Shown here in pieces: positions 24,420 through 34,579 of a DNA stretch of 34,579 nucleotides. Made by a program: the position numbers and the translations under genes. Position 1 is the stretch's first letter; each line of letters starts with the position of its first letter. Below the pieces are notes generated by a model, which saw nothing but the letters and a program-made list of their open reading frames with translations, had not been told where the DNA came from and did not search any database. This stretch comes from an uncultured Bacteroidales bacterium (GTDB lineage: Bacteria; Bacteroidota; Bacteroidia; Bacteroidales; Bacteroidaceae). The DNA lies in the NCBI GenBank assembly GCA_902760965.1, contig CACWIN010000019.1:1-34579 (forward strand), read 5' to 3'.

Positions 24420-26294
24420 ATGCTTATGAAAAAGTCTTCCCTTACAGTTGTATGTATTGCTGTAGCTGCATTATTTGCAGTGTCCTGTAATCTTAAGGTT
24501 GAGTTCGGCAAATCGCCCGTAAGGAAAGTTGTTGCCGCCATGACTCTTCAGGAAAAAGTAAACCTTTTGGTTTGCGCAGATGCAGGACAGACATATTCCA
24601 TACCGCGTTTGGGTATTCCGTCAGTGGTGCTGGCCGATGGCTCCGGCAATCGTACATCATTCCCTGTATCAACCATGCTGGCCCAAAGCTGGAACCAGCA
24701 GCTTGTTGAGGAGGTGGGAGAGGCTATTGGCGATGAGGTTAAGCGTAACGGTGCCGACTGTCTGCTGCTTCCGGCACTTGACCTGCACAGCAATCCGGTA
24801 GTATCAGGTAAAACAGCATCGGCAATGGTACGTGGCGTGCAGTCCAACGGTGTTGGCGCAACCATAAAGCATAATGCTCTGAACGGTCATCACACAACCC
24901 ACGGGCAATATCTAAAGGGTTTTGAGATTGCCGTCCGTGAATCACAACCTTGGGCTGTAATGACACGGAACAGTGTGCTTAATGACAGTATATTACGCAA
25001 CGAATGGGGCTTTGAGGGAATGGTAATGACAGAGCTGGGTGACAGTTCTGATGCGGTTGCTGCCATCCAGGCCGGCAATGATCTGATTTTGCCGGGCAAC
25101 GCAAATCATATTAAATCCATAATTGAGTCAGTCCAAAACGGAAATCTTGATGAAAAGATAATAGACCGTAATGTTCAGAATGTCCTTGCTTTTATAGAAC
25201 GCTCACCCAAAATGCAGGGTTATGAGATACAGAATGACCCTGATCTGGAAGCTCATGCCAGGATTTCGCGCTCCATAGCAACCGAGGGTATGGTCCTGCT
25301 TAAGAACAACGGTGCTCTTCCGTTGGCCAGGAACTGCAAGATGATAGCTCTTTACGGCACCAGCTCATATAATCTCTATGTGGCGGGGATGGTTAACGGC
25401 AGCATAAACAACAATCATGCCGTAAGCCTTAACGAGGGTCTTAAGGCTGCCGGTTACAAACTGGAACCCTCCATTTTATCGGCATATAGCCGTTATGTTG
25501 ACTCTCCGCAGCCACTTGTACGCAAGCCTTACCAGTACCGTGCCGATGCAATATCAAGCGATATAGCAATAATAACCATTGGCCGCAGTTTTGAAAACGA
25601 GAATGATTTTATGCTTACGGATAGTGAGCAGGGTCTTATCAGTGATGTTTGTGATGCATTCCACTTCAAAGGAAAGAAAGTAATTGTTGTTTTGAATATA
25701 GGCGCACCCATTGAAACTGCCAGTTGGAAATCGCACCCCGATGCTATCTTACTTGCCGGAATTCCAGGACAGGAGGCAGGTTACGCCATTTCCGATATAC
25801 TTAAAGGTGCAGTTAATCCATCGGGCAAACTGGTGGATACCTACGTTATAGATTATGATTGTCAAAAGGAGCAGGTTTCATATCCGTTTGGGTTTGGATT
25901 GAGCTATACCAAATTTACATATAGTGAACCCCAGGCAAAGGTTGTTGACGGTGTAGTCAGTCTGTCTGTAAAGATAACCAATACCGGATTGGTTGCCGGC
26001 AAGGAAGCTGTGCAGGTATATATTGAGGCTCCACAAGGCAATATTAACAACCAGACAAAAGAACTTAAGACCTACGGCAAGACCGCGTTGTTACAACCCG
26101 GCGAGAGCCAGACTCTTGAGTTTGCTCTTCCCAATTATGAACTGGCCGGTTTTGACCTTTCAACACTAACCTGGCAGACAGTTCAGGGAGAGTACAAGGC
26201 CCATTTTGCCGCCTCGTCACAGGATCTTCGCTGTCAGGCTTTATTCAATATCCCTGTTTCAAGCAGCTATCCGGCTTACGGATCACTAAAATGA
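24420..26294 (+). CDS. Glycoside hydrolase family 3-like lipoprotein with degenerate catalytic domain
   Basis: The protein has GH3 architecture: lipoprotein signal (FAVSC, lipidated C23), an N-terminal barrel (about 38-260), a GH3 C-terminal sandwich (about 285-505, with MVLLKNNGALPLA and ILLAGIPGQEAGYAISDIL) and a fibronectin III-like end (about 520-610). At 624 residues it is shorter than usual. In the barrel, the segment equivalent to the canonical SDWG that holds the nucleophile Asp reads TELG, so E205 replaces it. The RNFEYxSEDP loop after the DLHSNP strand is missing, and the KH pair (ATIKHN) is followed by an unusual HHTTHGQY loop. Normal beta-glucosidase activity is doubtful; a binding or altered-activity role is inference. 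Confidence 0.82.
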   Translation: MLMKKSSLTVVCIAVAALFAVSCNLKVEFGKSPVRKVVAAMTLQEKVNLLVCADAGQTYSIPRLGIPSVVLADGSGNRTSFPVSTMLAQSWNQQLVEEVGEAIGDEVKRNGADCLLLPALDLHSNPVVSGKTASAMVRGVQSNGVGATIKHNALNGHHTTHGQYLKGFEIAVRESQPWAVMTRNSVLNDSILRNEWGFEGMVMTELGDSSDAVAAIQAGNDLILPGNANHIKSIIESVQNGNLDEKIIDRNVQNVLAFIERSPKMQGYEIQNDPDLEAHARISRSIATEGMVLLKNNGALPLARNCKMIALYGTSSYNLYVAGMVNGSINNNHAVSLNEGLKAAGYKLEPSILSAYSRYVDSPQPLVRKPYQYRADAISSDIAIITIGRSFENENDFMLTDSEQGLISDVCDAFHFKGKKVIVVLNIGAPIETASWKSHPDAILLAGIPGQEAGYAISDILKGAVNPSGKLVDTYVIDYDCQKEQVSYPFGFGLSYTKFTYSEPQAKVVDGVVSLSVKITNTGLVAGKEAVQVYIEAPQGNINNQTKELKTYGKTALLQPGESQTLEFALPNYELAGFDLSTLTWQTVQGEYKAHFAASSQDLRCQALFNIPVSSSYPAYGSLK

Positions 26295-26344: not shown

Positions 26345-26386
26345 TGTGGGACAAATTTGTCCCACAATTGTCCCATTTTTGTCCAA
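26345..26386 (+). promoter_or_regulatory. Operator-like element A: palindrome plus three 11-bp-phased heptads
   Basis: TTGTCCC occurs at 26357-26363 and 26368-26374, and TTGTCCA at 26379-26385, an exact 11-base period. The first heptad is also the right half of a perfect 22-base palindrome (26345-26366: TGTGGGACAAA and its complement). The third heptad ends about 48 bases before the predicted transcript start, a typical activator position. The same triple-heptad layout recurs at 29402-29430. Confidence 0.75.
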
Positions 26387-26395
26387 TGGGTTTTG

Positions 26396-26427
26396 TTTGT
26401 ATCTTTATTGTCTTATAGGTATATTTG
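26396..26427 (+). promoter_or_regulatory. Sigma-ABfr-type promoter for the regulator operon
   Basis: TTTG at 26396-26399 and TATATTTG at 26420-26427 are separated by 20 bases, a full -33/-7 match. The predicted transcript start near 26434 gives a 19-base leader. Confidence 0.72.
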
Positions 26428-26452
26428 AAAAACATATTTATTATTCAGGTAA

Positions 26453-28072
26453 ATGACAAAAAAGATTGCAGTATCCATTCTGTCCTTATTGACTCTCCTT
26501 GCATCGTGTAAGGATAGAGACACATACCGTTATTTACAGAATGTGGAACAGGTTATTGAAACCGATGTTCCTGCTGCCAATTCCATGCTCAGTTCCATTC
26601 AACTATCGGACAATAAACGGAACAGGGCATTATATGCAATCTTAAAGACACAGGTTGATTATAAAAGCAATATTGTTGCACAGGATGACAGCCTTATTCT
26701 TACTGCCGTTAACTATTATGCAAACCGCTATGGTGTTAAGAAAGACTATCATGCTGCAATGGCGTGGTATTCGCTTGGTTGCGTATATACGGATATGGGA
26801 AACGATGTTCAGGCCATAAACGCTTACCTTAAGGCAAAAGCGTTATTCCCGGATACCCTGGTACGCTATTACGCACTTGCTGAACAGAATCTTGGAGAAC
26901 ATTATCTTAACCAGATGATGTTTGATCTGTCACTGAACAACCTTAATGGATCCCTAAAAAACTCTTTCAGGCTTCATGACAATGTGCTTACGTCGAATGT
27001 AAGGTATCTTATTGCCCTGAATGCATTGTATCAGGCCAATTATAATGCGGCCGATTCCCTATTTACCGTTATCCTTAAGGACCCTCAAGCCTCAAGTTTA
27101 AGGAGTCGCCAATGTTATATGAACCTGGCCAAGATATATCTAAATGGCTATCAGGACTATGAGATGGCAATGTATTACATTAACCGTTATCTGTATGAGT
27201 TAAAGGATTCTTTTGAGATGGGTGTGGGTTACAGCGTAAAGGCTGACATATATTTTGATACCCAGGAATATGATTCGGCATACCTTTATTACAACAAATC
27301 ATTGGATTGTCAGTATGAAATATATACCCTTTGTGACAACAGTGGCAAACTTGCGGTCCTGTCTGTGATTAAAGGCAATCCCGATGATGCTCTTGAGTAC
27401 ATGCAAATTCATGATGACCTTATTGATTCTATATATGAAATGCGCAAGGATGTTGCCATTGAGGATGTGATACGCAATCATGTCATCATGTTAAATGACG
27501 CCCAAACCCGTTACAGGAACAAGCGACTCATAATAATCAATTTGTCAATTCTGGTTCTTATTGTAATGGCATATCTGTTATTCAAGGCAGATAGGCAAAA
27601 CCGTATTGCCCGTAAAGAGATAAAACGTCGTGACGAGGAGCGCAGCAACAGCATAGAGGTCATGAAAGCCCACATGCTGGATTCACCTTTGAATAATAAA
27701 AAGTTGTCCAGAGATTCCATTATTAAAATGTATAAGGAGAGACTGGAAAAGTGTAAAGAGCAGTTCTGTGCCACTCAGGCATACTCCAATATGTCATCAA
27801 AACATTTTAATAATAATTACTCTTTTAGTGTTGAGGAAAGGGATTCCATAATAGACCAGATATCGGAATCATTCATAGACACAATCCTGGATATGAATAT
27901 TGAGATAGAGAACCTTGCCAGGGAGGACATAATAATATGCCTTTTGTCCAGTATGGGTTTTAACATCAGGTTTATATCCACGTTCATCAATATCTCGGAA
28001 AGTGGAGTCAGGAAACGCAAGGTAAGGCTTGTTGAAAAGACCGATAAAGAATTCATTGAATTGTTCATCTAA
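26453..28072 (+). CDS. Membrane-spanning TPR sensor with C-terminal HTH-like domain (predicted one-component regulator)
   Basis: The 539-residue protein starts with a signal or lipobox sequence (MTKKIAVSILSLLTLLASC, possible lipidation at C19). Residues about 30-350 are TPR-like helical repeats (AMAWYSLGCVYTDMGNDVQA; KIYLNGYQDYEMAMYYINRY) predicted to be periplasmic. One membrane helix (RLIIINLSILVLIVMAYLLF, about 358-378) follows, then a charged linker/coiled coil. The cytosolic end (about 488-539) reads LAREDIIICLLSSMGF-NIRFISTFINIS-ESGVRKRKVRL, with the layout of a LuxR/DUF6377-like helix-turn-helix. This architecture is common and poorly characterised in Bacteroidales. Its promoter carries operator A, and a surface-protein gene starts 10 bases after its stop. 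DNA binding is inference. Confidence 0.72.
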   Translation: MTKKIAVSILSLLTLLASCKDRDTYRYLQNVEQVIETDVPAANSMLSSIQLSDNKRNRALYAILKTQVDYKSNIVAQDDSLILTAVNYYANRYGVKKDYHAAMAWYSLGCVYTDMGNDVQAINAYLKAKALFPDTLVRYYALAEQNLGEHYLNQMMFDLSLNNLNGSLKNSFRLHDNVLTSNVRYLIALNALYQANYNAADSLFTVILKDPQASSLRSRQCYMNLAKIYLNGYQDYEMAMYYINRYLYELKDSFEMGVGYSVKADIYFDTQEYDSAYLYYNKSLDCQYEIYTLCDNSGKLAVLSVIKGNPDDALEYMQIHDDLIDSIYEMRKDVAIEDVIRNHVIMLNDAQTRYRNKRLIIINLSILVLIVMAYLLFKADRQNRIARKEIKRRDEERSNSIEVMKAHMLDSPLNNKKLSRDSIIKMYKERLEKCKEQFCATQAYSNMSSKHFNNNYSFSVEERDSIIDQISESFIDTILDMNIEIENLAREDIIICLLSSMGFNIRFISTFINISESGVRKRKVRLVEKTDKEFIELFI

Positions 28073-28082
28073 TAATATTGTT

Positions 28083-29372
28083 ATGAAACGTATTACATTA
28101 ACATTGCTCATTGCTTTATTCGCTACGTTAGCATTGAATGCCAAAGTATACATCCGACTGGTAAAAAGTACATCGGGTGGTCATACCTCCAGTGCAAAGG
28201 CAGGAATAAGGACAAGCGTATATGCACCATTGGCTTATATTGAAGATGAAAGACTTTGTATACAGTTTCCCGTGAGCACTGTATCAAGTGTTGTCATCAC
28301 CAATGATTCGACCGATGTTGCCATTCTTAGTGAGACTTTCCAGGTTGAATCAACCGATGTAAGTATGAGCGTTGCTACACTAAAGCAAGATCATGCATAC
28401 AATTTATCGGTCAACGCATTCGGAACATGGTGGGTAGGATATTTTGATTATGTTGTGTCCTCGGCGGAGCAATCAATTCAAAAGGGTTTTATCGGCACAA
28501 TTGATGATCCTGACAAGGAGCGTAATTACGGACTATACTTTGTTGCGGGCAATGCCTCGCCGGGTTGGAACTATGGAGTAAGCGGAATAGTATCTGGTCA
28601 GAATTACGGTACCGGAATATACGGTTCATCGCTGCAAGATGAGGGATTCAACACCGGCGGGCGTTTTGCCGGGTTGTTTCACGGTGACATTAAGACTACC
28701 GATGCGGTATATGCATCGGCATATAATACTCTGGCCGATTCCAGACTGAACAAGGATATGGAGCAGCTTGAAAATGGCAGTCTGGATAACCTTATGCAAG
28801 TTAGTGTATTCAAATACGGTCTTAAGCAGTTTGATGTTGACAATGGAGACAATTCAACATCACTTGGTTATTACAATGATGATTCGGGCATTTTGGATAA
28901 GGAACATTACGGTCTGTCCGGGCAGGAGATACAACAGATATATCCAAATCTGGTAACCCAAAATCAGGATGGATATCTGTCAGTCAATTACGTAGAGATG
29001 GTTCCGTTGTTAATTCAGTCCATCAAGGAGCTCAAGACCGAACTGGATAATACAAATGCCCAGTTGGAGTTGCTTAAAACAGGCACAAAAGTTGCAATCA
29101 GAATGACGGATCAGGCTGTGTTGTTTCAAAATACGCCCAATCCTTTTAAGACCAACTGTATTGTAAAGTGTATTATACCCCAAAATGTAAAAGAGGCGTT
29201 ATTCTGTCTTTACGATTATAGCGGCCGTCAGATTGAATGCCTGGAAATACATGACAGAGACAATGTGGAGATTCCGGTTGACGGGTATGGTCTTGAACCT
29301 GGAATATATCTGTATTCATTAATTACCGACGGGGAGATTGTTGATACTAAACGTATGGTTCGCATAGAATAA
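28083..29372 (+). CDS. T9SS cargo with DUF3244-like N-terminus and degenerate S74 (endosialidase chaperone) domain
   Basis: The start at 28083 gives 429 residues with signal peptide MKRITLTLLIALFATLALNA. Residues about 21-125 resemble a DUF3244-type beta-sandwich. A Gly/Tyr-rich beta region (GWNYGV, YGTGIYGSSL, GRFAGLFHGDIK) matches the paralogue at 30425. Residues about 210-335 align with the S74 intramolecular chaperone, including EHYGLSGQEIQQIYPNL and the terminal coiled coil. The normal cleavage motif SDxRLKxxI reads ADSRLNKDM (A218 for Ser, N223 for Lys), so self-cleavage is unlikely. The last 80 residues are a type A T9SS sorting domain (FQNTPNPFKTN, then EPGIYLYSLITDGEIVDTKR). It is co-transcribed with the regulator. 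Confidence 0.8.
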   Translation: MKRITLTLLIALFATLALNAKVYIRLVKSTSGGHTSSAKAGIRTSVYAPLAYIEDERLCIQFPVSTVSSVVITNDSTDVAILSETFQVESTDVSMSVATLKQDHAYNLSVNAFGTWWVGYFDYVVSSAEQSIQKGFIGTIDDPDKERNYGLYFVAGNASPGWNYGVSGIVSGQNYGTGIYGSSLQDEGFNTGGRFAGLFHGDIKTTDAVYASAYNTLADSRLNKDMEQLENGSLDNLMQVSVFKYGLKQFDVDNGDNSTSLGYYNDDSGILDKEHYGLSGQEIQQIYPNLVTQNQDGYLSVNYVEMVPLLIQSIKELKTELDNTNAQLELLKTGTKVAIRMTDQAVLFQNTPNPFKTNCIVKCIIPQNVKEALFCLYDYSGRQIECLEIHDRDNVEIPVDGYGLEPGIYLYSLITDGEIVDTKRMVRIE

Positions 29373-29401
29373 ATACGTCAATTTGCGGTAATTGGAACAT
29401 T

Positions 29402-29430
29402 TTGTCCCAAAAATGTCCCAAAATTGTCCC
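29402..29430 (+). promoter_or_regulatory. Operator-like element B: three 11-bp-phased heptads
   Basis: TTGTCCC at 29402-29408, ATGTCCC at 29413-29419 and TTGTCCC at 29424-29430 repeat with an exact 11-base period, the same strand, number and phase as element A. An imperfect inverted half (TTGGAACA, 29392-29399) precedes it, echoing the palindrome of element A. The distance from the last heptad to the -7 box is within one base of element A. Confidence 0.75.
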
Positions 29431-29438
29431 AAAAAAAA

Positions 29439-29471
29439 TTTGGTTTGACCTGTAAACCTCAATGATATTTG
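29439..29471 (+). promoter_or_regulatory. Predicted promoter for the Big2-S74-S8 operon
   Basis: TTTG at 29439-29442 and GATATTTG at 29464-29471 are 21 bases apart. The -7 box has one mismatch to TAnnTTTG (G for the first T), which fits a promoter that depends on an activator. The predicted transcript start near 29478 gives a 28-base leader. Confidence 0.55.
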
Positions 29472-29505: not shown

Positions 29506-30405
29506 ATGAAAAAGGCTATTACATTAACAGGTTCCACACTCGCAATGATGTGTGTATGTATTTTTGCAAATGCGCAAGAGGATACAACTCATGTTAACAT
29601 TATTACTCCAAATGAGCATAATAATGAATTATGGATTAATGATGACACTAAGGCCGACACAACACAAGTAGAGGATTTTACTATTGAGGAGCAGAATATA
29701 ACGCTCAGTGTTGGTGAAAGCCTACAGTTGCATGTAAATCCCTCCAGTGCCAATGTTAGATGGGTCCAAGGAGCATGGGATTTATCGGCCAATCCTGTTT
29801 TAGTTGTTGACCAGAACGGTTTGATTACAGCTTTAAAAGCAGGAGAATCATATGTGGCAGTTGAATCAACCGTTGATGGAAATGTCCGTAAACAGGCTCC
29901 GGTTACTGTCCTTAATCAAGGATCGGTTAAGACAGGAAACAAACAGCTTGAACCAACAAAAGAGTGCCAATGGGAGGAAGTAAAATTTACATTGACAAAC
30001 AACGGAAATTTTATTGCACAAGGTGTATTTTATGGTAGCGGCGCTAAAAGTAATCAGCTAAACTACTTGGTAACAGACCAATGTGTCTTTATGTGGTTTG
30101 ATATAGACTACGCCGATTCTACAAAGAATTTCTATCCCCAGCCATTTACTCTTGAGATTAGTGATTGTAACGCCCTTGCATACAACATTTATTTTAACAA
30201 CAGCACTCAAGTTGTTGAGAACAGCAGGAGTTTTGCAAACTACGCAATTAAAAGAGGCGCATCAACTGGCGGTACTACCCAAACGGACAATATCTTAATA
30301 AAAAATGATGACGGATTGATTTACGATCTTAATGGTCATATACTTATATCTGTTCCGGAAAAAGGTTCTTATATACAGAATGGCAAGATATACTATAATT
30401 ACTGA
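29506..30405 (+). CDS. Secreted Big2 (bacterial Ig-like) domain protein
   Basis: The ATG at 29506 gives 299 residues with signal peptide MKKAITLTGSTLAMMCVCIFANA; an in-frame TTG at 29479 is rejected. Residues about 55-135 match a Big2 Ig-like domain (ITLSVGESLQLHVNPSSANV and QNGLITALKAGESYVAVES). The following region (about 150-255) is beta-rich and not recognised. The C-terminus IYDLNGHILISVPEKGSYIQ-NGKIYY resembles the short terminal motif VYDLNGRxV...GIYIxNGKK found on many Bacteroidales surface proteins, a reduced relative of the T9SS sorting domain. It is the first gene after operator B and is followed by the S74 cargo gene. Confidence 0.75.
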   Translation: MKKAITLTGSTLAMMCVCIFANAQEDTTHVNIITPNEHNNELWINDDTKADTTQVEDFTIEEQNITLSVGESLQLHVNPSSANVRWVQGAWDLSANPVLVVDQNGLITALKAGESYVAVESTVDGNVRKQAPVTVLNQGSVKTGNKQLEPTKECQWEEVKFTLTNNGNFIAQGVFYGSGAKSNQLNYLVTDQCVFMWFDIDYADSTKNFYPQPFTLEISDCNALAYNIYFNNSTQVVENSRSFANYAIKRGASTGGTTQTDNILIKNDDGLIYDLNGHILISVPEKGSYIQNGKIYYNY

Positions 30406-30424
30406 TTAACTAATAATGATATTT

Positions 30425-31651
30425 ATGAAGAGGTCTTTTGTTTTATCGCTTATATGCTGTAGCTTTTTTAGTGCGGCATATTGTCAATTACGTGTTGAAA
30501 ACAATGGTAATGTTGGCGTAAAATATGCCGGAACTCCATCTGTTAATGGCTATTTTACTGTCAACAGTGCCGGTGACACAGAAACTTGTGCCACTATTTC
30601 TTCACAAGAGGAGACGCATGATGCTGTGTTAAAGGTAATCAAGACAGATGCTGTCACAACAGATCATAATTACATAATAGGTTTTTCGTCTTATACAAGA
30701 CAAAACAACAATTCATCCAGATTGGCTTATGGTGTTTACAGCAGAGCATTAAAAACTAATAATACAGACACCAATTCAGGTAGATCATATGGAGTATATT
30801 CTTATGCGGGCCATGCAACCCCAGGATGGAATTATGGTGTATTTGGGACGCTCTATGGTAATAACAACGGTGCAGGTGTATTTGGCTCATCCCTAGATTT
30901 TGATGATGGAATGAATACACAGGGAAAATTTGCAGGTTTTTTTCATGGTGATGTCAAATCCACCGATGCAATGTATGCTTCGACATACAATGTTCTGTCT
31001 GATTACAGATTAAAGGAAAATATCGTATCAATCGGTTCCGAAGGCCTGAATGATTTATTGAAACTGAATGTAGTAAAATATAATCTTAAACCCCGTTATG
31101 CCGATACTGGTGATACCTCTACTATTGGGAAAAGGTATTATACAAATGAATCAAAGTTACTTGAAAGGACTCACTACGGTTTGTTAGCTCAAGAACTACA
31201 AGGGGTTTATCCTGATTTAGTTTATGAAGGCGAAGACGGCTTTTTGTCGGTCAATTACATTGAACTGATACCTATTCTTATCAAATCCGTACAGGAGTTG
31301 AAAGCCAAAGTGGATGCGCTGGAAGGAAAACCCAACAATTCTCCTGTAAGAACAGGCGGCACTACTCAAGTTACCAGCCAATCGGCTATTCAGGCTGCAC
31401 TCTACCAGAACAGCCCCAATCCTTTCACTGAGAATACGACCATAAGGTGTATTATTCCAAGAAGTATATCAAAAGCTGTACTGTATATCTATGATATGAA
31501 CGGTCGCCAGATAGACAGTATGTCAATTGCTGAACGTGGTGATGTGTCTCTTACAGTAGAAGGAAGCAGTCTTGATGCAGGAATATATATGTATTCTCTC
31601 ATAACCGATGGAGAGGTTGTGGATACCAAACGTTTGATACTTACAAAATGA
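30425..31651 (+). CDS. T9SS cargo with intact S74 endosialidase-type chaperone domain
   Basis: Starting at 30425 gives 408 residues with signal peptide MKRSFVLSLICCSFFSAAYC; an ATG at 30416 adds three residues and is possible. The N-terminal part is a beta-rich passenger resembling phage tail-fibre heads (LRVENNGNVGVKYAG; YGVYSYAGHATPGWNYGVFG). The S74 domain begins at S192 in LSDYRLKENIVSIG, the intact self-cleavage motif, and continues HYGLLAQELQGVYPDLV and VNYIELIPILIKSVQELKAK. A type A T9SS sorting domain ends the protein (LYQNSPNPFTENT, then DAGIYMYSLITDGEVVDTKR). It overlaps the S8 protease start by four bases. S74 domains trimerise fibres and cut themselves off; a T9SS signal on the cut-off side is odd. 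Confidence 0.82.
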   Translation: MKRSFVLSLICCSFFSAAYCQLRVENNGNVGVKYAGTPSVNGYFTVNSAGDTETCATISSQEETHDAVLKVIKTDAVTTDHNYIIGFSSYTRQNNNSSRLAYGVYSRALKTNNTDTNSGRSYGVYSYAGHATPGWNYGVFGTLYGNNNGAGVFGSSLDFDDGMNTQGKFAGFFHGDVKSTDAMYASTYNVLSDYRLKENIVSIGSEGLNDLLKLNVVKYNLKPRYADTGDTSTIGKRYYTNESKLLERTHYGLLAQELQGVYPDLVYEGEDGFLSVNYIELIPILIKSVQELKAKVDALEGKPNNSPVRTGGTTQVTSQSAIQAALYQNSPNPFTENTTIRCIIPRSISKAVLYIYDMNGRQIDSMSIAERGDVSLTVEGSSLDAGIYMYSLITDGEVVDTKRLILTK

Positions 31652-33384
31652 GTATGAAAAGACGTGTATTGATTATTATTGTGGCATTGGCGGTAATGTC
31701 ATTGCCGTTTTTCGGTTATTCGCAAGAAATACCGGAAGGATCGTTCGTTCCAACAGACTACTATTATTATCAGGATGAAAAAATTCCTTTGGCTCTTAAT
31801 GAGAATAAAATCTCTATTTGTATCCCCAAAGATAGCGTTAATATAAGTACGAGGATTCTTGAAAACATAAGTGTTCTGGATAAGATAAAGGATGACAAAT
31901 TTGACATATTTGTTATACCCAAATCTGATCTGGATATTTTAGAATCTAAGGATTTTTGGGGTAATGCATCTAAGTCTGTAATAATTACACCTGGTTATTA
32001 TATCTCTAACGGAATGGAAGTTTTTTCCAGTCCATATATTATGCTACAACTTTTTAAGGGAGAAGATTTAGACATACTAAATAAATACTCTAAACGATAT
32101 GGGTTTGAAATAATTGGGAATGATTCAATAATGCCGCTTTGGTATGTTCTGTCTATTACACCAGAATCTGAATTTAATACGTTGGAATGTGCAAATAAGT
32201 TATGGGAAAGTGGAAAGTTCGCATCCTCAGAACCAGATTTGTGTTCAAAAATATCTTTATGTTCAAATGATCCTTTGTTTAGTCAGCAATGGGGGTTGTA
32301 TAATAGTAATTATACCGGAATTGACATATCTGTAGATTCTGCATGGAGTATTTCCACTGGAAAAGATATAAAAATTGCCATATTTGATGATGGGATAGAT
32401 GTGAATCATGTAGATTTAGCATCAAATGTCGGTAGTTTGAGTTTTGATACTGAAACAAATTATTCACCTAGTGGACTATATGGAGACCATGGTACTCATT
32501 GTGCTGGAATAGCGGCCGCCATAAAAGATAATAACCTCCATATAGCGGGAGTTGCCCCCGAAGCTACTATTGTTCCGATAAGTAACAGTATGACTTTCCA
32601 ATCTTTGAATCCATGTAAATTAGCCAACGGTTTTATTTGGGCCTATCAGAATGGAGTTGATATCATTTCAAATTCATGGATTATTTATACACCATATAGC
32701 GTTCTAACCAATGCTATACGAGATGCCCTAATATATGGTCGCCAGGGGAAAGGATGTGTTGTTGTTTTTTCGTCAGGGAATGATACAGATTATAATATTC
32801 CATATCCCGCTAATTGTAATGATTCTATTCTTGTTGTAGGTGCCATTAAAAAGAACGGAACAAGATGGGCTGATTCAAATTATGGCAATAAACTTGATGT
32901 AGTTGCACCTGGAGTTAACATTATTTCTACTATTCCTAATAATACAACGGGCTATAATACCGGTACATCTATGGCTTGTCCTCATGTTGCAGGTGTAGCT
33001 GCATTGATACTGGAACTAAATCCTGGGTTGACAGTTAATCAAGTGAATAGTATCATAAACAGTAATGCCAAAAAGTTATCTGGGGTTAATTTTAATATTA
33101 CTAAACCAGATGGATTGTGGAATAATGAATATGGATATGGTCTGGTTGATGCGTATAGTTCTGTGATGAACACTCCGAGAACTGTCTATATTCAAAACGA
33201 AACTATAAATGGAACAAGGAATATTACAGCAGATAGTATTTATGTTGGAAAAGATGTTACTAATTTAATTGGACAAGGAGATGTGATACTTGGCCCTGGT
33301 AATATTACATTGAAAGCTGATTATATAGAGATAAAGAATTCTACCACAGTACCTTTAGGCACTACTCTTAAGGTGGAAAACTGA
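31648..33384 (+). CDS. Secreted subtilisin-family (S8) serine protease
   Basis: The 578-residue precursor has a signal peptide (MSMKRRVLIIIVALAVMSLPFFGYSQ) and a prodomain (about 38-200) ending in the ANKLWESGKFASSEPDL motif typical of Bacteroidetes S8 proteases. The S8 domain (about 215-505) keeps the triad D247 (IAIFDDGID), H281 (GDHGTHCAGI) and S441 (GTSMACPHVAG), with oxyanion N378 (FSSGND). The last 60 residues are a beta-helical tail (GNITLKADYIEIKNSTTVPLG) that commonly precedes a sorting domain, but the gene stops without one. It is the third gene of the operon under operator B, overlapping the S74 cargo stop (ATGA). It may process the co-encoded surface proteins; that is inference. 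Confidence 0.88.
   Translation: MSMKRRVLIIIVALAVMSLPFFGYSQEIPEGSFVPTDYYYYQDEKIPLALNENKISICIPKDSVNISTRILENISVLDKIKDDKFDIFVIPKSDLDILESKDFWGNASKSVIITPGYYISNGMEVFSSPYIMLQLFKGEDLDILNKYSKRYGFEIIGNDSIMPLWYVLSITPESEFNTLECANKLWESGKFASSEPDLCSKISLCSNDPLFSQQWGLYNSNYTGIDISVDSAWSISTGKDIKIAIFDDGIDVNHVDLASNVGSLSFDTETNYSPSGLYGDHGTHCAGIAAAIKDNNLHIAGVAPEATIVPISNSMTFQSLNPCKLANGFIWAYQNGVDIISNSWIIYTPYSVLTNAIRDALIYGRQGKGCVVVFSSGNDTDYNIPYPANCNDSILVVGAIKKNGTRWADSNYGNKLDVVAPGVNIISTIPNNTTGYNTGTSMACPHVAGVAALILELNPGLTVNQVNSIINSNAKKLSGVNFNITKPDGLWNNEYGYGLVDAYSSVMNTPRTVYIQNETINGTRNITADSIYVGKDVTNLIGQGDVILGPGNITLKADYIEIKNSTTVPLGTTLKVEN
31759..32241 (+). repeat. Prodomain repeat copy 1 (inside the S8 protease)
   Basis: This unit runs from the YYYYQ motif to SSEPDL and is the protease prodomain. 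Two further copies lie at 33535-33998 and 34032-34513 in the truncated relative downstream. Confidence 0.75.
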
Positions 33385-33534
33385 TTATACATGTAAATCA
33401 TAGGATGTCAAATAATTAAACAGAATAAAATGAATAAACGTGTATTACTAGTTCTATTAGCTTTGGCATTAATGCCATTGACAGTTTTCGGTTTTTCTTT
33501 GGATGAACCGGAAAATATGAATGAGCAGACAGGT

Positions 33535-33998
33535 TATTATTATCAAGGAAAGAAGAATACAAAAACTGCATCTGCATCCCTAAAGATAGCGTAGGCATTA
33601 AAGACAGGATTCTTGCAAACATAAGCATTCTTGACATTATAAATGACAATGCTTTTTTCCTTTACATTGTTCATGTCTCAGATTATCAGAAACTGACCTC
33701 AATGGATTTCTGGGAAAAGGATTCAAAATCTATAATAACAACTCAATGTTATTTTTTTGATAGGGGAATCGAAGTCTTTACCGATCCATATATTATTGTT
33801 GGGCTAAAGAAAGAAGAAGATCGGAGTATACTGGAATCTTATTCAGAACAGTATGGATTTAAGATTATAGGTAATGGACCACAAATGCCATTATATTATA
33901 TTCTGGCTATCACCCCGGAATGTAAGATGAACACATTGGAATGCGCCAACAAATTATATGAAACCGGACAGTTTGCGTCATCGGAGCCAGATCTTTGT
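33535..33998 (+). repeat. Prodomain repeat copy 2
   Basis: This copy runs from YYYQ to SSEPDL and includes the frameshifting deletion. Bases 33921-33991 match 34440-34510 at 69 of 71 positions by my alignment, so copies 2 and 3 diverged recently or exchange sequence. Confidence 0.8.
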
Positions 33999-34031
33999 AC
34001 GTACATCAGAAAAACTAATTCCCAAACGGCA

Positions 34032-34513
34032 TATTATTATTACCAAGGTGAAAAAATAAACCTGACTCTTAATGAGAACAAGACCTGTTTGTTTGTTCCA
34101 AAAGATAGTGTTGGAATTAGCCAAAGAGTCTTAGCAACTCTTGAACCGTTGGACGTGATAAATGACGATGAATATGTCATTTATGTTATTAATGACGAAG
34201 ATTATCAGGAATTGTCCATAACGGATCCTTGGGATGACGATTCAAGATCTGTAATTACAACTCAATGTTATTTTACCGAAAAAGGGACCGAAGTATATTC
34301 CAGTCCATACATCATTTTGGGTCTAAAGAAAGAACAAGACTCAAGCATACTGGAATCATATTCGGAACAATATGGGTTTAAGATAGTAAGAAATGAGCCT
34401 TTGATGCCATTATACTATATTCTGTCCATTACCCCCAAATGTAAGATGAACACATTGGAATGCGCCAACAAATTATATGAAACCGGATTGTTTGCGTCAT
34501 CGGAGCCAGACTT
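34032..34513 (+). repeat. Prodomain repeat copy 3
   Basis: This copy runs from YYYYQ to SSEPDL in the same frame as the main part of copy 2. It is closer to copy 2 than to the prodomain of the intact protease. Confidence 0.8.
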
Positions 34514-34579
34514 AATGAGTGTAATAAATAAAAGCAATGGCGGTACCCCCACTTTAGTGGATGAAACTGCAATACAACC

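Follow-up and report, generated by a model that had tools for sequence, protein, structure and literature searches.

Phased heptad arrays ahead of a SusR-like regulator gene and an adjacent surface-protein operon look like one case of a wider operator layout

SusR combines tetratricopeptide repeats (TPR) and a C-terminal helix-turn-helix (HTH) in a single membrane regulator. The excerpted text of PMC12632263 names it as the regulator of the sus genes. For the SARP and SARP-LAL regulators of Streptomyces (PimR, ActII-ORF4 type), the described operators consist of direct heptamers, two or three in number, that follow one another in 11-bp steps with spacers of 4 bp; the monomers are believed to occupy one face of the DNA cooperatively and to activate (PMC5930380, in excerpt). 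Regulation tied to the type IX secretion system (T9SS) is represented by PorXY-SigP, in which PorA, a protein of the cargo type, passes on a signal from the surface (PMC7712824, in excerpt). Here, we analyze a stretch of 34,579 nucleotides from an uncultured Bacteroidales bacterium of the rumen (GCA_902760965.1, contig CACWIN010000019.1; called the window throughout, at its full length), in which two triple arrays of the heptad TTGTCCC precede the gene of a predicted TPR-bearing membrane regulator and an operon of surface proteins. These arrays seem to exemplify a broader operator layout that is often specific to the locus, and we consider it probable, on sequence grounds, that a SusR-like one-component activator binds its own promoter and the adjacent surface-protein promoters, with the heptad set by its recognition helix.

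Array 1, a putative operator ahead of the regulator gene, has heptads at positions 26357, 26368 and 26379 (26357..26385; TTGTCCC, TTGTCCC, TTGTCCA), and array 2, a putative operator ahead of the surface-protein operon, has heptads at 29402, 29413 and 29424 (29402..29430; TTGTCCC, ATGTCCC, TTGTCCC). All lie on the plus strand in 11-bp steps, and four of the six are exact, the deviants being those at 26379 and 29413. Counted from the G of the final heptad to the closing G of the -7 box, the distance is 46 bp for array 1 (TATATTTG, 26419..26426, plus strand) and 45 bp for array 2 (GATATTTG, 29464..29471, plus strand), the latter box with one mismatch to TAnnTTTG, the -7 consensus used here and quoted in the excerpted text of PMC7366714. 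With up to three mismatches allowed, the triple pattern matched only these two places in the window, as compared with no match in 100 dinucleotide shuffles. The source draft genome (2.32 Mb in 93 contigs, 81% complete) held the same two matches and no third, and a reversed control pattern matched once. The original prediction, made from the window alone, was accurate on the strand, number and phasing of the heptads, on both box distances and on the lack of further arrays in the window. It did not mention a perfect 20-bp palindrome, GTGGGACAAATTTGTCCCAC, at 26346..26365, within which array 1 starts and which places the inverted half-site GGGACAA before the first heptad. An inverted half-site, GGGACAA or GGGAAAG, stands ahead of the array in all seven orthologous regulator promoters.

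The gene behind array 1 (26453..28072, plus strand) encodes a lipoprotein-type regulator of 539 residues, for which domain search, structure model and alignment give TPR repeats, a single hydrophobic and predicted transmembrane segment at about residues 359–377, and a helical C-terminus with a candidate HTH and the recognition segment SESGVRKRKVRL. The protein conforms to the SusR-type layout of a TPR region, one transmembrane segment and a C-terminal HTH. Its lipobox cysteine is invariant, as is the segment SESGVRKRK, with its VRKRK motif, in the C-terminus of all seven orthologues.

Of 150 genomes searched, 7 contain the exact triple, and all 7 belong to the genus of the window (7 of 37, versus 0 of 113 others). 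In a protein search of the 37 genus genomes, the full-length orthologues, at 68–76% identity, came from precisely the six other triple carriers among the matches listed, and the non-orthologous long matches listed reached at most about 40%. These six are metagenome-assembled genomes of Bacteroidaceae or Bacteroidales, from sources including water buffalo, reindeer and yak, and each has the orthologous array. In all seven orthologues the array stands at the head of the regulator's transcription unit (in G025 with a 105-residue open reading frame (ORF) between), and across the seven promoters the heptads are 98% conserved, compared with about 67% for the flanks. A second nearby array precedes another gene in four of the six other genomes (G005, G007, G009 and G025); the contigs of G026 and G029 stop shortly after the regulator gene. 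G007 carries, on a separate contig, a further array followed by the genes of a T9SS-tail protein and of an RHS/SpvB-type protein of 2192 residues. Two outcomes that the original prediction had named as speaking against it, arrays at random genomic positions and loss at orthologous loci, were not seen: the arrays are non-random in place, and every orthologue retains its triple.

A second branch of regulators is accompanied by double arrays. A search for triple repeats upstream of 40 more distant paralogues yielded at most one degenerate case (L102); the upstream regions, read directly, contain doubles. Scanning the genus for TTGTCCC-N5-TGTCC gave 41 matches in 17 of 37 genomes, as compared with 14 for the reversed control. 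Five loci (G005:C19, G009:C42, G019:C23, G020:C26 and G022:C37) have one double ahead of the regulator and another past it, on the side of the next gene, whose start at G022:C37 was found only 600 bp beyond the double. In G018 and at G022:C88 the array heads an operon containing the regulator, which in G018 follows a BspA-type LRR gene and precedes an S74/T9SS gene. For further counts we hand-picked 35 arrays, dropping L150, L151, L152, L154 and L155 (inside genes), a pair on G000:C1, L223 and L229. Leaving aside one array in G168 and an orphan in G030, a genome with no regulator match among the matches listed and no box at the expected place, 33 genus arrays remain, whose promoters form 16 flank groups under a lenient rule. 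A TPR regulator gene or fragment adjoins 29 of the 33, a count that includes two regulator fragments in which the HTH was not seen (L147, L148). Three arrays have no adjoining regulator (L112, L146 and L149), and L144 is cut by a contig edge. ORFs were scanned from ATG starts only, which leaves start distances uncertain (L075 at 7438, L097 at 3509, L101 at 4255).

Two loci of this set call for separate description. When L149 (G026:C8) is compared with L089 (G020:C26), the regulator gene is absent exactly between two arrays, and the alignments overlap by 23 bp at the array, as if recombination between operators had lost the gene or the assembly were at fault; a 93% identical regulator, L095, lies on another contig. 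At L223 (G009:C53:149313-149360), four unevenly spaced TGTCCC copies lie near another TPR paralogue, with no -7 box at the usual distance.

The distance to the promoter is nearly constant. Behind the 35 arrays, 31 exact TAnnTTTG boxes were found at 10–124 bp, 23 of them at 44–46 bp, and the corresponding numbers for boxes with one mismatch are 92 and 31; in total, 29 of the 35 arrays have a box with at most one mismatch at 44–46 bp. Direct heptamers in 11-bp steps before a promoter, the SARP-type operator layout, are what these arrays present. Array presence also followed the recognition segment. Among 42 of 50 regulator-like ORFs, those whose match reaches the HTH, an exact array lay within 600 bp upstream or 300 bp downstream of 14 of 18 RKRK-type regulators (a class including one HKRK, L084), as compared with 0 of 24 others; without the seven orthologues, the figures are 7 of 11 and 0 of 24. 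On a quick tree of the 42 regulators, with several long branches, the RKRK state takes two changes and the array state five, and a VKQR-type branch nested in the array-bearing part has neither RKRK nor array. Layout, conservation, spacing and co-occurrence with the regulator type can all be read directly from the DNA.

In genus g30, 55 proteins matched a profile built from RKRK-type C-termini; 33 of these were sampled, mostly for their long open frames (three are not TPR proteins). The exact TTGTCCC double was absent from the 15 sampled g30 genomes. Exact 7-mers repeated at spacing 11 occurred in 10 of the 33 upstream regions; no other spacing between 7 and 30 gave them in more than 3. Across 79 regulator upstream regions (33 from g30, 39 from paralogues and 7 from orthologues), repeats anchored to a -7 box were present in 27 at spacing 11, one of which (L077) has a chance look, versus 0–3 at each other spacing from 7 to 20; each of 20 shuffled control sets gave 0–3. 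Like segments went with like heptads: LRKRKSR with TGTCACG, LRSRKTR with TGCAATA, VQTRKSR with TGTAAGT, LRTRK(Y/F)R with GGAACG and VRKRRVR with TGTCC(T/C)G, a comparison that is illustrative and covers 7 of 13 loci, leaving out L312 and the second heptad of L304. Of the 30 anchored repeats that these 13 extended loci hold, 24 lie no more than 220 bases from the start of an ORF. TGTCACG-type arrays stand at the regulator and its neighbours in L302 (three), L303 (two) and L304 (three), and TGCAATA-type arrays likewise in L305 (three), L306 (four) and L307 (two). The g30 targets include one BspA-type LRR protein; four of the five scanned had no family match. The original prediction, which suggested that one regulator binds cooperatively along one face of the DNA and activates both units, is supported and looks largely right: paired arrays at regulator and neighbour recur in the second branch and, with other heptads, in g30, at a near-constant distance to the -7 box. 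It was too narrow in scope, TTGTCCC appearing to be one case of a broader layout.

Phased TGTAACG arrays (L308, L309, L310) precede proteins with an HTH-like N-terminus. A scan of one of them, that of L308, showed a DUF4153 region and found no TPR; the layout may therefore extend past TPR regulators. In genus g8, the only exact TTGTCCC double of G168 stands 82 bp ahead of the gene of a 1007-residue protein that carries a T9SS sorting domain; a one-mismatch box follows at 45 bp. In this genome the top hit of the regulator profile is a divergent protein, which has the segment VRKIRQR and reaches DUF6377 and, weakly, GerE. Outside the genus of the window there were 31 TTGTCCC doubles, and among the 22 read, at 21 loci, only L163 resembles this system. 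Other sequences share the motif. In other genera, doubles lie 75–110 bp before genes that look by eye like tyrosine integrases (L165, L170, L189, L192), some with inverted GGGACAA; in genus g3, apparently unrelated 11-bp tandem repeats with TTGTCCC run across a predicted ORF (L164, L168); and G018 and G031 have, among the matches listed, many copies of palindromic repeats with TGTCCC ends and a REP-like look.

Pfam, NCBIfam and PDB profile searches left the HTH without a family name. Pfam matched only TPR in the window protein, whose DNA-binding-like segment is C-terminal, and GerE matched neither this protein nor the seven-member C-terminal set at E values up to 5. A structure model of the C-terminus (pLDDT 71.5) gave, for the four-helix HTH fold expected of LuxR/NarL-type regulators, weak matches to RcsB (5vxn_D) and DegU (7x1k_B), at 1.2 Å over 42 and 45 columns with E values of 1.5 and 2.2, and the HTH weakly matched the profile of EvgA (E 0.038). 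A full-length model was set aside for naming the HTH, being of low confidence and having TPR and other helical-repeat proteins among the matches listed. A distant relative, L236, scored 19.5 bits for GerE against a cut-off of 23.5 and matched DUF6377 at 2.4e-7. The window protein matched neither SusR_regulator nor BT3442_fam of NCBIfam at E values up to 10; relatives matched BT3442_fam at 1.3e-6 (L089, L100) and 4e-15 (L236), and one matched SusR_regulator at 0.0022, all far under the cut-offs.

The genes behind the arrays, all on the plus strand, agree with the original description of a predicted membrane regulator and a surface-protein operon. The regulator's operon includes, by position, a DUF3244 and S74 protein (28083..29372) with a T9SS-like tail at 22.6 bits, just below the cut-off of 23. 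Array 2 is followed by a secreted-looking protein with a Big_2 Ig-like domain (29506..30405), an S74 (endosialidase chaperone) protein with a T9SS sorting domain (30416..31651) and a subtilase (S8) family protein (31648..33384), by position the final clear gene of the operon. Behind the subtilase, at 33430-34579, two similar tandem stretches, the first with an early stop codon, have the look of a broken or repeated gene and run to the contig end. Elsewhere in the window, a GH3 gene at 24420-26294 encodes 624 residues, compared with 771-772 in five of six relatives.

In the mechanism that we propose, the 26453 protein would be a one-component membrane regulator with a periplasmic TPR sensor, a lipid anchor and one transmembrane helix, and its cytoplasmic LuxR/NarL-like HTH would contact the arrays. 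Several copies would sit head to tail on the same DNA face, one per TTG(N4) heptad, and the proximal copy, 44–46 bp from the -7 box, would help RNA polymerase start, thereby activating both the regulator's own operon and the adjacent surface-protein operon. Even spacing by one helical turn, a copy number of two or three and an unvarying distance to the -7 box agree with subunits arranged head to tail along one side of the helix, the proximal one close to RNA polymerase. The recognition segment would set the heptad (RKRK with TGTCCC), and relatives whose segments differ would read different heptads arranged in the same way. We infer the membrane topology, that the protein binds the arrays directly and cooperatively, that it activates and does not repress, and that the TPR region senses a signal.

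Several observations weigh against this proposal. No Pfam HTH family matched the window protein, and the HTH fold search gave no match as good as E 0.001. No anchored array was found in 52 of the 79 upstream regions, including those of the g30 regulators L269 and L276, which have RKRK segments; 6 of the 35 arrays have no box at 44–46 bp; and four RKRK-type regulators have no flanking array, two of them in array-headed operons. The association of array and segment (p 5.8e-8) ignores kinship, and for 7 of its 14 positive cases, the orthologues, the presence of arrays was already known. More than one heptad type occurs in L304 (also TGGGACG) and L312 (two different heptads), and L302-L304 and L305-L307 look like orthologous sets. 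Finally, most targets outside the window match no family, and for this reason they are called surface proteins from signal-like N-termini judged by eye.

Some of these findings could be read differently. The arrays without a regulator alongside (L112, L146, L149; L144 at a contig edge) and the doubles before integrase-like genes in other genera would suit another DNA-binding protein, encoded elsewhere, that reads TTGTCCC and has the TPR regulators as mere targets. We regard this as unlikely, given that 29 of 33 genus arrays adjoin a TPR regulator gene or fragment, that array presence tracks the recognition segment and that the g30 heptad varies by locus, which one general factor does not explain. 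A regulator that binds the arrays and represses, or switches between activation and repression by signal, appears less likely still: autorepression is common among regulators generally, and L099 and L101 have an exact box at a distance of 28 bp from the final heptad, which would bring the array closer to the polymerase site, but the 29 of 35 arrays with a box at 44–46 bp lie upstream of the core promoter, the usual position of an activator.

Chance, recombination or mobile-element repeats with no regulatory role would hardly account for arrays that have 0 matches in 100 shuffles, heptads conserved within divergent flanks, a fixed distance to the -7 box and a spacing of 11 that alone stands out. 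The gap at L149 (G026:C8), where precisely the regulator gene between two arrays is gone, as though recombined out, and the free-spacing TGTCCC pairs, common and partly palindromic among the matches listed, are what such an origin has in its favor, and we hold it to be very improbable. A SusR-like activator acting on its own and neighboring promoters is our preferred reading.

A broader generalization seems about evenly balanced: that Bacteroidaceae hold a large family of TPR regulators, each with a private heptad for its own surface or secreted cargo in a common frame of 11-bp steps and 44–46 bp to the -7 box, in which few recognition-helix residues (R-K-R-K, R-S-R-K, R-T-R-K and neighbors) set the heptad and the TPR may sense the cargo. 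If true, one genome would run several insulated sensor circuits, and the sequence pairs would amount to a readable protein–DNA code. Surface and secreted proteins decide how these gut bacteria deal with food, hosts and rivals, and few local regulators of them are described. Recognizing the operator in a sequence gives a prediction of the genes under a given regulator, the naturally occurring segment–heptad pairs offer material for testing a DNA-recognition code, and the arrays might supply parts for insulated promoters in Bacteroidota.

Among the open-licence papers listed, including those on TPR-LuxR and T9SS regulators, we found no description of a phased-heptad operator system of this kind, nor, in the same literature, of an operator for SusR, BT3442 or DUF6377-type regulators. 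Judging from the excerpted source, PorXY-SigP resembles the window system in tying regulation to the T9SS; it differs in being a two-component system with an extracytoplasmic function (ECF) sigma factor acting on the secretion machinery, whereas here a one-component regulator lies beside surface-protein genes, some of them T9SS cargo. LuxR/NarL-type response regulators such as RcsB, DegU and EvgA share a weak fold or profile similarity of the HTH, in contrast to which the window protein has no receiver domain that we found, is fused to a TPR membrane sensor and goes unrecognized by Pfam GerE. By architecture, the nearest kind of protein appears to be SusR: like the SusR, BT3442 and DUF6377 TPR proteins of Bacteroides, the window protein is a predicted TPR membrane regulator with a C-terminal HTH adjoining the genes it may control. 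SusR controls starch genes, whereas the predicted targets here are surface proteins, and the window protein matches neither SusR_regulator nor BT3442_fam. The operators, in turn, come closest to those described for SARPs, as far as the excerpted source covers them. SARPs are soluble and have an N-terminal OmpR-type domain, unlike the membrane-bound window protein with its C-terminal HTH of another type; by analogy, the window system would work like a SARP without being a member of that family.

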